DNA of 42,453 nt from Chromatiaceae bacterium (GTDB lineage: Bacteria; Pseudomonadota; Gammaproteobacteria; Chromatiales; Chromatiaceae). This document shows, piece by piece, positions 27,270-31,380 of the stretch (positions are counted from its first letter, which is position 1; every line of letters begins with the position of its first letter). Location of the stretch: positions 1-42,453 of the forward strand of contig JACDZG010000058.1 of NCBI GenBank assembly GCA_013426805.1, read 5' to 3'. Position numbers and translations under genes: made by a program. The notes beneath the pieces were generated by a model. That model saw only the letters and a program-made list of their open reading frames with translations. It ran no database searches and was not told the DNA's origin.

Positions 27270-27381
27270 GCCCCATCCTGCGCCTTGAGCAGCGCTCTGC
27301 CGGATCGTGCGGACATCTGTTTTCAAGCACCTGCGGCCCCCTTGGGGCACCTGCCCGAGCGACCTTGCCCTGACGGCTTAC

Positions 27382-27428: not shown

Positions 27429-27447
27429 CTCACCGGGAAACGCCGCC

Positions 27448-30435
27448 ATGAGGACCGCACCGAACACGCTCGCGAGCCTGCCCACCCGCGTCCTCAAACG
27501 CGACGGGCGGGAGGTGGTTTTCGATGCGGCCAAAATCGAATCCGCCATCCTGCGGGCCGGCCAGGCGAGTGGGGAGTACGGTGACATGGAGTCGCGCCTC
27601 CTGACCGCCCAAGTGGTCAAGGTGCTGGCGCACCGCTTCGGCAACGGGCGGCTGCCGGATATCGAGGGCATCCAGGATGTGGTGGAGCAGACACTGATCT
27701 CCGCCAACCATTTCGAGACCGCGCGCTCCTACATCGTCTATCGCGAACAGCACTCGCGACTGCGTGACCACGAGCGCACCCTGGTGGACGTGGCTGCCTC
27801 CATTGATGAGTACTTGGACCGTTCCGACTGGCGCGTGGCCGCCAACGCCAACCAGGGGTATTCGCTCGGCGGGCTGATTCTCAACACCTCGGGCAAGATG
27901 ATCGCCAACTATTGGCTGTCGCATGTCTATCCGCCGCAGATCGGCGAGGCCCATCGTGAGGGCGACATCCATATCCACGATCTGGACATGCTGTCGGGCT
28001 ACTGCGCCGGCTGGTCATTGCGCACCCTGCTGCACGAAGGTCTGAACGGGGTGCCGGGGCGCGTGGAGGCGGGGCCGCCGCGGCATATGTCGAGCGCGGT
28101 GGGCCAGATCGTGAACTTTCTGGGGACTTTGCAGAACGAATGGGCGGGCGCCCAGGCCTTCTCCAGCTTCGATACCTACATGGCCCCCTTCGTGCGAGCC
28201 GACCGGCTCGGTTATGCCGAAGTCAGGCAGTGCATCCAAGAGCTTATCTATAATCTCAATGTCCCGTCGCGGTGGGGGACTCAGTGTGTCGATGCGCAAA
28301 CAGAGTGTCTGACTGAACACGGCTGGAAGCACTACGACCAGCTTCAGTCCGGCGAGCGCATCGCGACCTTCGATTGGCGCAACAATCGCCTGGAGTATTT
28401 GGAGCCGCTGGCCGTGAAGGCCTATGACTTCGACGGTGATATGTACGTCCTGCGCAACCGTACCCAGGAGCAATGGATCACCCCGGGGCACAAAGTCCTG
28501 CGCAAGGTCTTCAACAGCGATAACCGGTGGGTTCTGGAAGACATCGAAGCGGTCGCGGCACTCAAGTCCCCGGTCATCATCCCGAACGCCTGGGAGACGG
28601 ATTCGACGGTTGAGATCGACGACCGGGTGGTGATGCTGCTGGCCTGGGTAGTCGCCGAGGGGAACTTCGATTTCAGCGCCGGGCGTCGCCGCATCAGCCT
28701 GTTCCAATCGACCGGCAATCCGGAGAATGCCGCCGAGATCGCGTGGCTGCTCGACGAACTGGGGCTCTCCTACCACCTGTTGGAGAGGACCGGAACCTAC
28801 GCGAATTATCCCGTCTACCGTTATCGCCTGAATAAGGAAGGCAGCGACTTCGTGCTGGACCATCTGGAGCGCAAATGCGTTCCGGCGGTCGTCCGCACCC
28901 TCTCGGTCCGCCAGATCCGGCTCTTCCTGGACACCTATATCAAGGGCGACGGCAGCGTCGAGCCGAACGGCCGCACCCGGATCTACACCAACGACCGGGA
29001 CAATCTGGATGCACTCCAAGAGCTTTGTACCCTGGCCGGTTACGGAAGCAGCGTCGACACGCGGGAGGACTCGGGCGTCCATGTCTTAAACCTGGTCCGC
29101 AATCGCGAGACCTATATCCAGCTCATCGAACGTCGGCTCTACCAGGGCAAGGTCTGGTGCCCGACGACCCGTAACGGCACCTTCGTCGCACGCCGCAACG
29201 GCAAGACCTTCATTACCGGCAATACGCCCTTCACCAATCTGACCTTCGACTGGGTCTGCCCGGACGACCTGCGCGACCAGGTGCCGGTGATCGCCGGGGT
29301 GGAGCAGCCCTATACCTACGGGGACCTTCAGGTCGAGATGGACCTGATCAACCGGGCCTATATCGAGGTGATGACGGCGGGGGATGCCAAGGGCCGGATC
29401 TTCACCTTCCCGATCCCGACCTACAACATCACGCCGGACTTTCCCTGGGAGAGTGAGAACGCGGACCGGCTCTTCGCCATGACCGCCAAGTACGGTTTGC
29501 CGTACTTCCAGAATTTCATCAATTCCGAACTCTCGCCCAACATGGTCCGGTCCATGTGCTGTCGCCTGCAACTGGATCTCCGCGAGTTGCTCAAGCGCGG
29601 CAACGGGCTCTTCGGTTCAGCCGAGCAGACCGGCTCGGTGGGTGTGGTCACCATCAACTGCGCGCGGTTGGGCTATCTCCACGCGGGCGACGAGACCGCC
29701 CTGCTGGCGCGGCTCGACCGCTTGCTGGATCAGGCGCGCAACAGTCTGGAGATCAAGCGCAAAGTGGTTCAGCGTCACCTCGACGCCGGGCTCTTTCCCT
29801 ATACAAAACGCTATCTCGGGACTCTGCGTAATCACTTCTCCACCATCGGGGTGAACGGCATCAACGAGATGATCCGCAATTTCACCCACGATGCCGAGGA
29901 CATCACCACCGCCGCCGGACAGGCGCTGGCGATCCGCCTGCTCGACCGGGTGCGCGCACGGATGGTCGAGTTCCAGGAGTCCACCGGTCATCTCTACAAT
30001 CTGGAGGCGACTCCGGCCGAGGGGACGACCTATCGCTTCGCCCGCGAGGATCAGAAGCGCTATCCGGGCATCCTCCAGGCCGGCACGGCGGAGACGCCGT
30101 ATTACACCAACAGTTCGCAGTTGCCGGTGGGTTTCACGGATGACCCCTTCCAAGCCCTGGAGATGCAGGAGCCGCTCCAGTCCCGTTACACCGGCGGGAC
30201 CGTGCTGCATCTTTATATGAGCGAACAGGTCTCCAGCGTCGCGGCGTGCAAGCGGCTGGTGCGCCGTGCGCTGACCCAGTTCCGGCTGCCCTATATCACC
30301 GTCACCCCGGTTTTTTCCATCTGTCCCAAGCATGGATACATTGCCGGCGAGCACGAGTTCTGCCCGCTGTGCGATCAGGAACTGATCGCCAGAAAACGGG
30401 GGAAAGAGAAAACAGCGGCAGAAGACGTCGCATGA
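27448..30435 (+). CDS. nrdD: Anaerobic ribonucleotide reductase large polypeptide with intein, lacking the glycyl-radical domain
   Basis: NrdD reduces ribonucleoside triphosphates to deoxyribonucleotides without oxygen. The open frame has 995 residues: an N-terminal ATP-cone (VLKRDGREVVFDAAKIESAI), the start of the catalytic barrel, a 313-residue intein at 280-592, and the rest of the barrel. The active-site region SMCCRLQLD has Cys704/705 (precursor numbering). The polypeptide ends soon after a metal-binding motif (Cys959, His962, Cys972, Cys975 in CPKHGY and CPLC). In most NrdD proteins the glycyl-radical loop follows that motif; here it is encoded separately at 30497-30691. After splicing the protein would be 682 residues. 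ATG 27448 is chosen because it lies just after the NrdR boxes and gives a normal N-terminus. Confidence 0.95.
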   Translation: MRTAPNTLASLPTRVLKRDGREVVFDAAKIESAILRAGQASGEYGDMESRLLTAQVVKVLAHRFGNGRLPDIEGIQDVVEQTLISANHFETARSYIVYREQHSRLRDHERTLVDVAASIDEYLDRSDWRVAANANQGYSLGGLILNTSGKMIANYWLSHVYPPQIGEAHREGDIHIHDLDMLSGYCAGWSLRTLLHEGLNGVPGRVEAGPPRHMSSAVGQIVNFLGTLQNEWAGAQAFSSFDTYMAPFVRADRLGYAEVRQCIQELIYNLNVPSRWGTQCVDAQTECLTEHGWKHYDQLQSGERIATFDWRNNRLEYLEPLAVKAYDFDGDMYVLRNRTQEQWITPGHKVLRKVFNSDNRWVLEDIEAVAALKSPVIIPNAWETDSTVEIDDRVVMLLAWVVAEGNFDFSAGRRRISLFQSTGNPENAAEIAWLLDELGLSYHLLERTGTYANYPVYRYRLNKEGSDFVLDHLERKCVPAVVRTLSVRQIRLFLDTYIKGDGSVEPNGRTRIYTNDRDNLDALQELCTLAGYGSSVDTREDSGVHVLNLVRNRETYIQLIERRLYQGKVWCPTTRNGTFVARRNGKTFITGNTPFTNLTFDWVCPDDLRDQVPVIAGVEQPYTYGDLQVEMDLINRAYIEVMTAGDAKGRIFTFPIPTYNITPDFPWESENADRLFAMTAKYGLPYFQNFINSELSPNMVRSMCCRLQLDLRELLKRGNGLFGSAEQTGSVGVVTINCARLGYLHAGDETALLARLDRLLDQARNSLEIKRKVVQRHLDAGLFPYTKRYLGTLRNHFSTIGVNGINEMIRNFTHDAEDITTAAGQALAIRLLDRVRARMVEFQESTGHLYNLEATPAEGTTYRFAREDQKRYPGILQAGTAETPYYTNSSQLPVGFTDDPFQALEMQEPLQSRYTGGTVLHLYMSEQVSSVAACKRLVRRALTQFRLPYITVTPVFSICPKHGYIAGEHEFCPLCDQELIARKRGKEKTAAEDVA
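28285..29223 (+). other. Intein with LAGLIDADG homing endonuclease in NrdD
   Basis: The 313-residue insert begins with Cys1 (CVDAQTECLTEHGW, block A) and has the TPGH motif with His69 (block B). It ends with ARRNGKTFITGN, followed by Thr as the first residue of the downstream extein. The penultimate residue is Gly rather than the usual His. Two LAGLIDADG-type motifs are present, LLAWVVAEGNF (acidic Glu125) and FLDTYIKGDGS (acidic Asp222), so the endonuclease looks intact. Removing the insert restores RWGTQ-TPFTNLTFD, a continuous and highly conserved NrdD active-site sequence, which fixes the boundaries. Insertion at a conserved active-site coding sequence is typical of inteins. Confidence 0.95.
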
Positions 30436-30496
30436 ACGCGACGAGGCGCGAGCAGTATCCATCGGAATAACCGACAAATCTGAAGAGACTAGGACC

Positions 30497-30691
30497 ATGA
30501 AAGAATCGAGCATACTGACCCTGAATCAGGAAGAGCGCACCCGTTGTGAAGTCTGGACCCGGGTCATGGGCTATCACCGCCCGGTCGCCGCCTTCAATCT
30601 CGGCAAGCGCGCCGAACACGCGGATCGCTGCTACTTCACCGAGACTCCGCGTGGAACGCCCTTGCGTGTCCAGCACCAAGCCGCTGCCTGA
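30497..30691 (+). CDS. nrdD: Separate glycyl-radical domain of class III ribonucleotide reductase
   Basis: This 64-residue protein carries CEVWTRVMGYHRPVAAFNLGK, which is the glycyl-radical motif normally found at the C-terminus of NrdD; the radical would sit on Gly25 in RVMGY. It starts at its own ATG with purine-rich GAAGAG and AGGA upstream, 61 bases after the stop of the large polypeptide and in a different frame. The activase gene nrdG starts 17 bases later, so the order is catalytic barrel, radical domain, activase. I infer a two-chain enzyme in which this subunit docks into the barrel. A sequencing frameshift is unlikely because the spacer does not encode linker sequence. The product has its own tail (TETPRGTPLRVQHQAAA). 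Confidence 0.9.
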   Translation: MKESSILTLNQEERTRCEVWTRVMGYHRPVAAFNLGKRAEHADRCYFTETPRGTPLRVQHQAAA

Positions 30692-30708: not shown

Positions 30709-31380
30709 ATGGGCGTCGATGAATCATCAGGGATCGTCGCGACATTGCCGGCCCGCATCGGGTCCGAGCCGTTGCGCGTGGGCGGTCTGACGCCGCTGAC
30801 CACGGTTGACTACCCCGGTGAACTGGCAGCCGTGGTGTTCTGTCAGGGATGCCCCTGGCGCTGTCGCTACTGCCACAATGCCCATCTGCTGCCCAGCGTT
30901 GCCGCGGGTCTGATCCGCTGGGCCGAGGTCTGCCGATTCCTGGAAGCACGGCGGGGACTGTTGGATGCGGTGGTCTTCAGCGGGGGTGAGCCGACCTTGC
31001 AGTCGTCCCTGAAGGGGGCGATGGCACAGGTGCGCGCACTCGGCTTCAAGATCGGGCTGCATACCTCGGGCGCCTATCCGGCGCGGCTCAAGGCGTTACT
31101 CCCGCTGCTCGACTGGGTGGGGTTGGACATCAAGGCCCTGCCGGACGATTACCCGGCCATCACCGGTGTCCCCAAGTCCGGAGAGCGGGCCTGGGAGAGC
31201 CTTGAAATCCTGCTCGCGGCCGGGGTGCCGTTAGAGGTGCGGACCACCATTCTGCCGGGTCATGAGGGGGATGCGGTGCTGGCATCGCTCAAGACGCGGC
31301 TCGCGGCGCTGGGTGTCAAAACGCATCAGATCCAACAATGCCGGATGGAACGGGTGCGCGATCCGACACTGAGCGCGTAG
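30709..31380 (+). CDS. nrdG: Anaerobic ribonucleotide reductase activating protein
   Basis: NrdG is a radical-SAM enzyme that installs the glycyl radical on NrdD. The 223-residue protein has the [4Fe-4S]-binding CPWRCRYC (CxxxCxxC) near residue 47, the SAM-binding FSGGEPTLQ, and the barrel strand GLDIKAL. The N-terminal VGGLTPLTTVDYPGELAAVVFCQGC is typical of the NrdG type found with the nrdD family here. It follows the separate radical-domain gene by 17 bases and ends convergent to the ferritin-like gene. Confidence 0.95.
   Translation: MGVDESSGIVATLPARIGSEPLRVGGLTPLTTVDYPGELAAVVFCQGCPWRCRYCHNAHLLPSVAAGLIRWAEVCRFLEARRGLLDAVVFSGGEPTLQSSLKGAMAQVRALGFKIGLHTSGAYPARLKALLPLLDWVGLDIKALPDDYPAITGVPKSGERAWESLEILLAAGVPLEVRTTILPGHEGDAVLASLKTRLAALGVKTHQIQQCRMERVRDPTLSA

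Follow-up and report, generated by a model that had tools for sequence, protein, structure and literature searches.

In a Chromatiaceae bacterium (GenBank assembly GCA_013426805.1, contig JACDZG010000058.1) the class III ribonucleotide reductase NrdD is encoded by two genes, a large nrdD whose product ends before the glycyl-radical loop and a gene of 64 codons which carries this loop and is followed by nrdG, the gene for the activase. The stretch of DNA analysed, hereafter the window, comprises 42,453 nucleotides (positions 1 to 42,453 of the contig, forward strand). The same split is found in a wide set of bacterial loci, and the small gene occurs by itself on viral contigs and plasmids. Very likely the two genes encode a two-chain NrdD in which, as we infer, an active, oxygen-labile radical subunit would be exchangeable and would be supplied by viruses too, much like the proteins YfiD and Y06I.

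The large open reading frame (ORF) is open from a GTG at 27307 (1042 amino acids, aa); from the ATG at 27445 it encodes 996 aa including an intein (Table 1). It matches the class III family NRDD (PF13597) with 550 bits, far above all others, and is not a class II reductase; the ATP-cone (PF03477) scores 77 bits. Of the 562 positions of the Pfam NRDD profile, the large ORF accounts for 2-158 and 156-529 and the small ORF for 532-562, the cut lying between the zinc ribbon and the glycyl-radical loop. Taken alone, the small protein reaches 30.7 bits against NRDD (cut-off 26.2, E 1.7e-7), and the small piece is therefore not a product of chance. PF13597 is its sole Pfam match at E <= 0.001; the glycine radical domain of the pyruvate formate-lyase (PFL) type is not matched, and a phmmer search of the PDB with the 64-aa protein gave no match at E <= 0.1. 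The codon of Cys17 occupies 30545-30547, and Gly25, the glycine of the motif RVMGY, is encoded by GGC at 30569-30571. The start of nrdG lies 17 bases past the end of the small gene. Catalytic domain with ATP-cone, zinc ribbon and adjacent NrdG are all present in the window; a glycyl-radical loop in the same chain is absent.

An earlier note, made from the sequence alone, had placed RVMGY and Gly25 in a separate 64-codon gene right before nrdG, and its coordinates are borne out; it makes no mention of the intein in the large chain. Its figures for the end of the large chain, 20 residues past Cys959-Cys975, are exact when counted from the ATG at 27445 (Cys1006-Cys1022 of the 1042-aa ORF). The gap is 61 bases as it had said, the stop of the large gene ending at 30435 and the small gene starting with the ATG at 30497. 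The two genes indeed lie in different frames (27307 mod 3 = 1, 30497 mod 3 = 2), and the small gene has its own start, preceded by AGGA. A second, complete nrdD, named in the note as a counter-scenario, was sought in the bacterium's own genome and not found: the draft (7.6 Mb, 349 contigs) gave no other PF13597 match. One PF02867 reductase is present.

Table 1. Features of the split nrdD locus in the window
Feature	Position	Strand	Basis
nrdD large chain, class III ribonucleotide reductase without glycyl-radical loop	27445..30435	+	PF13597, TIGR02487, NF006126/PRK08270 1107 bits
ATP-cone domain	27487..27756	+	PF03477, residues 61-150 of the 1042-aa ORF
Intein, 313 aa, LAGLIDADG domain, between WGTQ and TPF	28285..29223	+	PF14528; interrupts the NRDD match at profile positions 156-158
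Cys-Cys of the S-M-C-C-R motif	29557..29562	+	sequence; Thermotoga maritima counterpart by inference
Zinc ribbon C-x2-H-x9-C-x2-C, end of large chain	30322..30372	+	sequence; match to T. maritima NrdD
Likely ribosome-binding site (AGGA) for small gene	30491..30494	+	sequence
Glycyl-radical subunit gene, 64 aa	30497..30691	+	ORF, NRDD profile and phrog_4132 matches
nrdG (NrdG2 type), radical S-adenosylmethionine (radical-SAM) activase	30709..31380	+	TIGR02495 NrdG2, 201 bits versus cut-off 131

The S-M-C-C-R motif of the large chain likely corresponds to SCCR, a motif reported in the NrdD of T. maritima (PMC4493059). The break of the NRDD match at the intein site recurs in many Chromatiaceae and is absent in a locus of the same genus (L017).

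The split is conserved among bacteria. When genomes, one for each species, were scanned with eight aligned small proteins as query, at least 583 relatives were returned, of which the best 80 loci were examined; these are not a measure of frequency because they are the nearest to the query. In 79 of them the large nrdD is a separate ORF ending just upstream of the small one. The 80th, on a contig of a Cyanobium metagenome-assembled genome (MAG; L099, G290:C347), has the small gene without a large gene. Relative to the large gene the small gene lies in frame 0, +1 and +2 in 21, 33 and 25 of the 79 split loci, respectively. In 78 of the 79 loci an in-frame ATG lies no more than 40 codons ahead of the core, and the first such ATG is separated from the large gene's stop by -68 to 549 bases (median 32). 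The stops which separate pairs lying in the same frame vary among TGA, TAA and TAG. Such varied frame relations and gaps are therefore explained neither by a mis-called base nor by a recoding signal.

An assembly or sequencing error, or a decayed nrdD, would mean that a false or recent frameshift has interrupted what is otherwise a single gene, and the window by itself fits this description insofar as the small ORF lies in another frame than the large ORF. A frameshift error of this kind, which the earlier note had named as fatal to its reading, was sought and not found. The 79 split loci show all three frame relations, overlaps and gaps of up to 549 bases; moreover, purifying selection acts on the small gene, conservation of the large chain is strong and the genome holds no second nrdD. 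Frameshift error or pseudogene is ruled out by the varied loci together with the purifying selection, and we give this explanation virtually no weight. Alternatively, a programmed frameshift, stop read-through or protein trans-splicing might join both frames into a usual NrdD. The two genes share a frame in 21 of the 79 loci, and the window's nrdD holds an intein, though a complete one. However, frame relation and spacing are not conserved, which rules out recoding; the stops of in-frame pairs differ, an own ATG lies nearby in 78 of 79 loci, and viral contigs and plasmids hold the small gene without an adjacent large gene. Joining of the two frames is thus very improbable.

How common the split is was assessed in two further samples with less bias. 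Among 55 kin genomes, the window's own included, 27 have NRDD: 24 in split form, two as one chain and one cut by a contig end. Among 199 evenly drawn genomes of Pseudomonadota (at least 90% complete), 24 have NRDD, eight split and 16 one-chain. The loop VTRRVCGYLG, which we take to be that of Escherichia coli NrdD, is present in 13 of these 16. Species of Pseudomonas other than P. aeruginosa are among those with split loci.

Purifying selection on the small gene is evident from its 36-codon core. Between the window and seven genomes of the same genus, synonymous divergence (dS) is 0.18-0.58 and nonsynonymous divergence (dN) 0-0.05. For the viral cores, 32 closely similar pairs with partly overlapping membership give pooled synonymous and nonsynonymous proportions of difference (pS, pN) of 0.325 and 0.062. 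Cys17, eight residues N-terminal of the glycine, is kept in 78 of the 79 split small proteins and in 55 of 57 distinct viral cores, whereas its place is taken by Thr or Val in all 16 one-chain NrdDs examined. Cys17 would be a residue which marks the split form.

Copies of the small gene exceed those of the large gene in several host genomes. The NRDD profile was run against twelve genomes of the window's family, which are most of those with more than one match in a DNA search (G297 and G031 were not included). A single large nrdD is present in every one of them, and nine of the twelve have two to five glycyl pieces (two pieces score just under the cut-off). The genome G293 has one large nrdD and five small glycyl pieces. 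Some of the surplus copies stand in phage surroundings. Two orphan small genes of G298 adjoin portal genes of Mu type. One orphan region of G348 has full identity with a virus record of IMG/VR along 9129 bases, another lies near a phage capsid gene, and the split operon is located on the same chromosome as the orphans. G376 has the orphan of the Allochromatium vinosum plasmid (100% identity) plus a chromosomal split operon. In the orphan-bearing genomes examined the large chain lacks the glycyl loop as well.

Plasmids carry both arrangements. Of 29 plasmid records matched by tblastn, eight were examined. Five have the large gene, the small gene and nrdG in this order (Cupriavidus necator H16 pHG1 and plasmids of Sulfuricurvum, Azospira, Sulfuricystis and Bradyrhizobium), and on these five the small gene is annotated nrdD. 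The locus on pHG1 is thus split, and NrdDG of C. necator H16 is reported as essential for complete denitrification (PMC2864759). On a Thiothrix plasmid the small gene and nrdG are annotated and the large gene, found by tblastn, is not; in this plasmid, pTfr153 of Thiothrix fructosivorans, the large nrdD (L039:2287-3962) lies in two frames and its N-terminal part is missing, with the small gene and nrdG behind it. The remaining two plasmids, from A. vinosum and A. tepidum, have the glycyl piece alone on the whole plasmid. In A. vinosum, closely similar proteins (L034:4060-5201, on the plasmid annotated as a CHAP-domain protein, and L237:3601-4733) precede the plasmid orphan and an apparently decayed chromosomal orphan, and this arrangement is a duplicated cassette.

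The small gene was further found alone on viral contigs. A scan of these with the same eight-protein alignment gave 173 relatives, and none of the best 80 stretches examined has a large NrdD or NrdG. Forty of the 80 records, picked for length and variety, were searched over their full length. All 40 match NRDD in its glycyl part, 35 of them over the cut-off; a catalytic NrdD over the cut-off was found in none of the 40 whole records, and neither was an NrdG. A second NRDD match occurs in a single record (G087, 15 bits). This 177-kb viral contig also encodes, at C1:110012-112086, a radical-SAM match (55 bits to NrdG2) beside an ORF with a weak match to NRDD 503-529. In genomes, nrdG follows downstream within the stretch in 78 of the 79 split loci. 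The earlier note's guess at a conserved variant instead of a one-off was right and even too modest, given that the small piece by itself is carried by viruses and plasmids.

The viral contigs with orphan small genes are phages. Of 84 viral ORFs scanned in their flanks, six match the terminase family phrog_2, and families of portal, tape measure, DNA pilot and DNA polymerase proteins are matched by others; one terminase family is matched by nine of the 40 whole records. Ten chosen near neighbours comprise two endolysins, three terminases, two minor head proteins, two tape measures and one DNA polymerase. A contig end cuts two of the 80 viral small ORFs. Gly25, Tyr26, Arg28, Pro29, Asn34, Lys37, Glu40 and Arg44 are kept in all 57 distinct viral cores; part of this conservation follows from the patterns used in the search, CEVWTRV and MGYHRPV, with Asn34 to Arg44 lying outside both. 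The phage family phrog_4132, which has no function assigned in PHROGs, is matched by all eight small proteins scanned, that of the window among them. The profile of this family is 179 positions long, the shared part being approximately 115-162, and it matched none of 14 control genomes, six of which have NRDD. An extra Cys-rich N-terminal module is found on small proteins of the viral loci L121, L127, L129, L131, L140, L141, L144, L145, L155 and L163 and also of L240, L255 and L256. Three of five such proteins scanned match NRDD from positions 513-522, the zinc-ribbon part.

A stand-alone glycyl piece is also encoded by ANMV-1 (KP703175.1, L277:3180-3614), a virus of an uncultured archaeon from methane-seep sediment. 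Its protein AJP62049.1 (144 aa) is annotated 'anaerobic ribonucleoside triphosphate reductase', has the glycyl loop SRIVGYLRP and, besides this loop, holds only a portion of the zinc ribbon (NRDD 519-562); no other NRDD match is present in the 38,465 bases of the record. Like the window's small protein it stands alone and has a Cys at the place of Cys17, but the two are only distantly alike (47% over 34 residues), and the archaeal-virus protein differs by its part of the zinc ribbon. The piece is therefore not confined to phages of proteobacteria.

Another explanation is plain gene fission. Under fission, the two chains would be obligate subunits without repair or exchange, and the phage and plasmid copies would be chance morons or a matter of gene dosage. 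The window's small gene is the only copy in its genome, so that there is no spare there. The trees allow one or several origins of the split. Intein-bearing loci, loci without the NANQGYS anchor and loci with short large ORFs were left out of them. One tree, in which four of the one-chain rows L202-L214 were kept and L221 was left out, shows three changes between one-chain and split forms, on long branches. A single clade of all seven one-chain rows, among them L004, was not rejected by the approximately unbiased (AU) test (p 0.72; the tree with this clade is 13.3 log units better), and a single old split is therefore possible. L004 itself (G031), a one-chain NrdD of the Chromatiaceae, has a linker, CGEATEVW, like that of distant one-chain forms, and may represent either a retained old state or a re-fusion. 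Against plain fission stand the genomes in which two to five small pieces accompany a single large gene and the orphans in several different phage settings with their key residues kept, which together suggest selection for an extra small subunit in trans. We consider fission alone unlikely.

It could also be that the phage proteins are decoys, acting as inhibitors of the host enzyme or by titration of NrdG. Nucleotide metabolism of the host is commonly redirected by phages, and the extra Cys-rich N-terminal module on some phage copies would suit such a role. However, the eight key residues are kept in all 57 viral cores, even if partly by way of the search patterns, and a decoy function is in our view distinctly improbable.

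Several observations weigh against an exchangeable, virus-supplied subunit. Of the 80 viral stretches only 33 have flanks of at least 2.5 kb on both sides, and a completeness rating of 90% is reached in none of the 40 whole records, so that a large gene elsewhere in those phages is possible. In 16 of the 80 viral ORFs no in-frame ATG lies within 45 residues before the core; these have a start further upstream, another start codon, or no translation. A tblastn search of 50,697 phage records with four queries matched four diverged records, three of them one-chain NrdD and the fourth ANMV-1, and found no named proteobacterial phage with the small piece. The chromosomal copy L237 of A. vinosum appears decayed. 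The Cyanobium MAG has its orphan in the absence of any large gene (its contig is possibly a phage contig binned in). Furthermore, 19 viral records do encode a large NrdD of the window's type. Virus-coded NrdD of this type is also split: 15 of the 19 have a separate small match downstream, one lies at a contig edge and three have none in the stretch, and NrdG is present in three stretches (L272, L273, L274). Twelve of these viral large NrdDs (L258-L268, L275; ORFs of approximately 570-590 aa) match the query only from about residue 100-113 and appear to lack the ATP-cone; their records have a separate small match downstream and no nrdG in the stretch.

The structure model has to be read with similar reserve. 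In a fold of large and small chain tethered into one, Gly726 (corresponding to Gly25) comes within two residues of Gly580 of phage T4 NrdD and Gly621 of T. maritima NrdD in those rows which reach the loop. Seven of the 21 class III rows end before it. The quality of the fold is moderate, with a predicted local distance difference test (pLDDT) score of 67, less than 50 at the glycine, and a predicted template modelling (pTM) score of 0.58 from an alignment of 11 rows. Docking is not an independent result here because the fold was made on one tethered chain.

With these points taken into account, we favour the two-chain enzyme with an exchangeable radical subunit, which may work as follows. The large chain retains the ATP-cone, the barrel, the thiyl-radical cysteines and the zinc ribbon, and the glycyl-radical loop is provided as a small separate subunit from its own gene between nrdD and nrdG. 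This subunit is expected to dock where the C-terminal loop sits in a one-chain NrdD. Within the complex NrdG would generate the radical on Gly25, from where it would be transferred to the active-site cysteine. The large chain is costly, and the glycyl radical is cleaved by oxygen. Such damage would cost a cheap subunit of 64 residues rather than approximately 680, and a fresh small subunit could replace the cut one. The small genes of phages, prophages and plasmids would most likely serve to keep or restore the host's supply of deoxyribonucleoside triphosphates (dNTPs) during infection, the phage re-arming or boosting the host enzyme at the price of a gene no longer than a few hundred bases. 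It seems reasonably likely that class III reductase can be viewed generally as a cartridge system, with a durable catalytic chain and a disposable glycyl-radical subunit of 60 residues, and that this cartridge is what phages, prophages and plasmids (phrog_4132), apparently joined by an archaeal virus, bring along without the large chain.

If this is true, a spare part exists for a glycyl radical enzyme other than pyruvate formate-lyase, and the 'spare' has replaced the built-in domain. The idea of spare parts beyond pyruvate formate-lyase would become directly testable for ribonucleotide reductase, and the two-component system would allow radical formation, docking and oxygen damage to be studied on a small protein. 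The phage family phrog_4132 would receive a likely function, and viruses of anaerobic hosts might support dNTP supply with one tiny gene.

Known systems resemble the window's locus in part. One-chain NrdD of the T4, T. maritima and E. coli type has the same large domain, zinc ribbon, glycyl loop and nrdG activase, but ribbon and loop lie in one chain and the place of Cys17 is taken by Thr or Val. NrdJa/NrdJb of P. aeruginosa is likewise a reductase of two polypeptides; it differs as a B12-dependent class II enzyme. In the parts of the source available, this split is called exceptional and a split class III enzyme is not mentioned (PMC4860495). Fragmented nrdD genes have been described in the phages phiAS4 and Lactococcus phage 949 as breaks in single phages, caused by an unknown event and an intron (PMC3653736). 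They share an nrdD in several pieces, but a conserved cut at the border of ribbon and loop or a stand-alone loop gene is not described for them. A list of prophage genes includes nrdD, in the part accessible to us without detail (PMC12013270). In open-licence PMC literature, available in part and with subscription papers outside the scope, we found no description of a split class III reductase or of a phage-borne glycyl subunit. The enzyme class and the repair idea are both known, and we did not find the two described in combination.

The closest parallel is that of YfiD/GrcA of E. coli and Y06I of phage T4, which are spare parts for pyruvate formate-lyase; according to the sections seen of a 2021 paper, only these two had been validated and spare parts for other enzymes were a matter of speculation (PMC8683613). 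The likeness lies in a small separate glycyl-radical protein, the existence of a phage version and, presumably, the use of the parent's radical-SAM activase. Here, however, the parent is a class III reductase, and the sequence matches NRDD (PF13597), not the PFL type. GrcA has a full-length parent enzyme alongside, whereas the only NrdD of the window's genome is without the loop. The earlier note had likened the small protein to a spare part. This fits the virus and plasmid copies, but in the window the small gene is a needed subunit because it is the only source of the glycyl loop there. Unlike YfiD and Y06I, the small protein of these bacteria would hence be a subunit of the enzyme, and not only a part for its repair.

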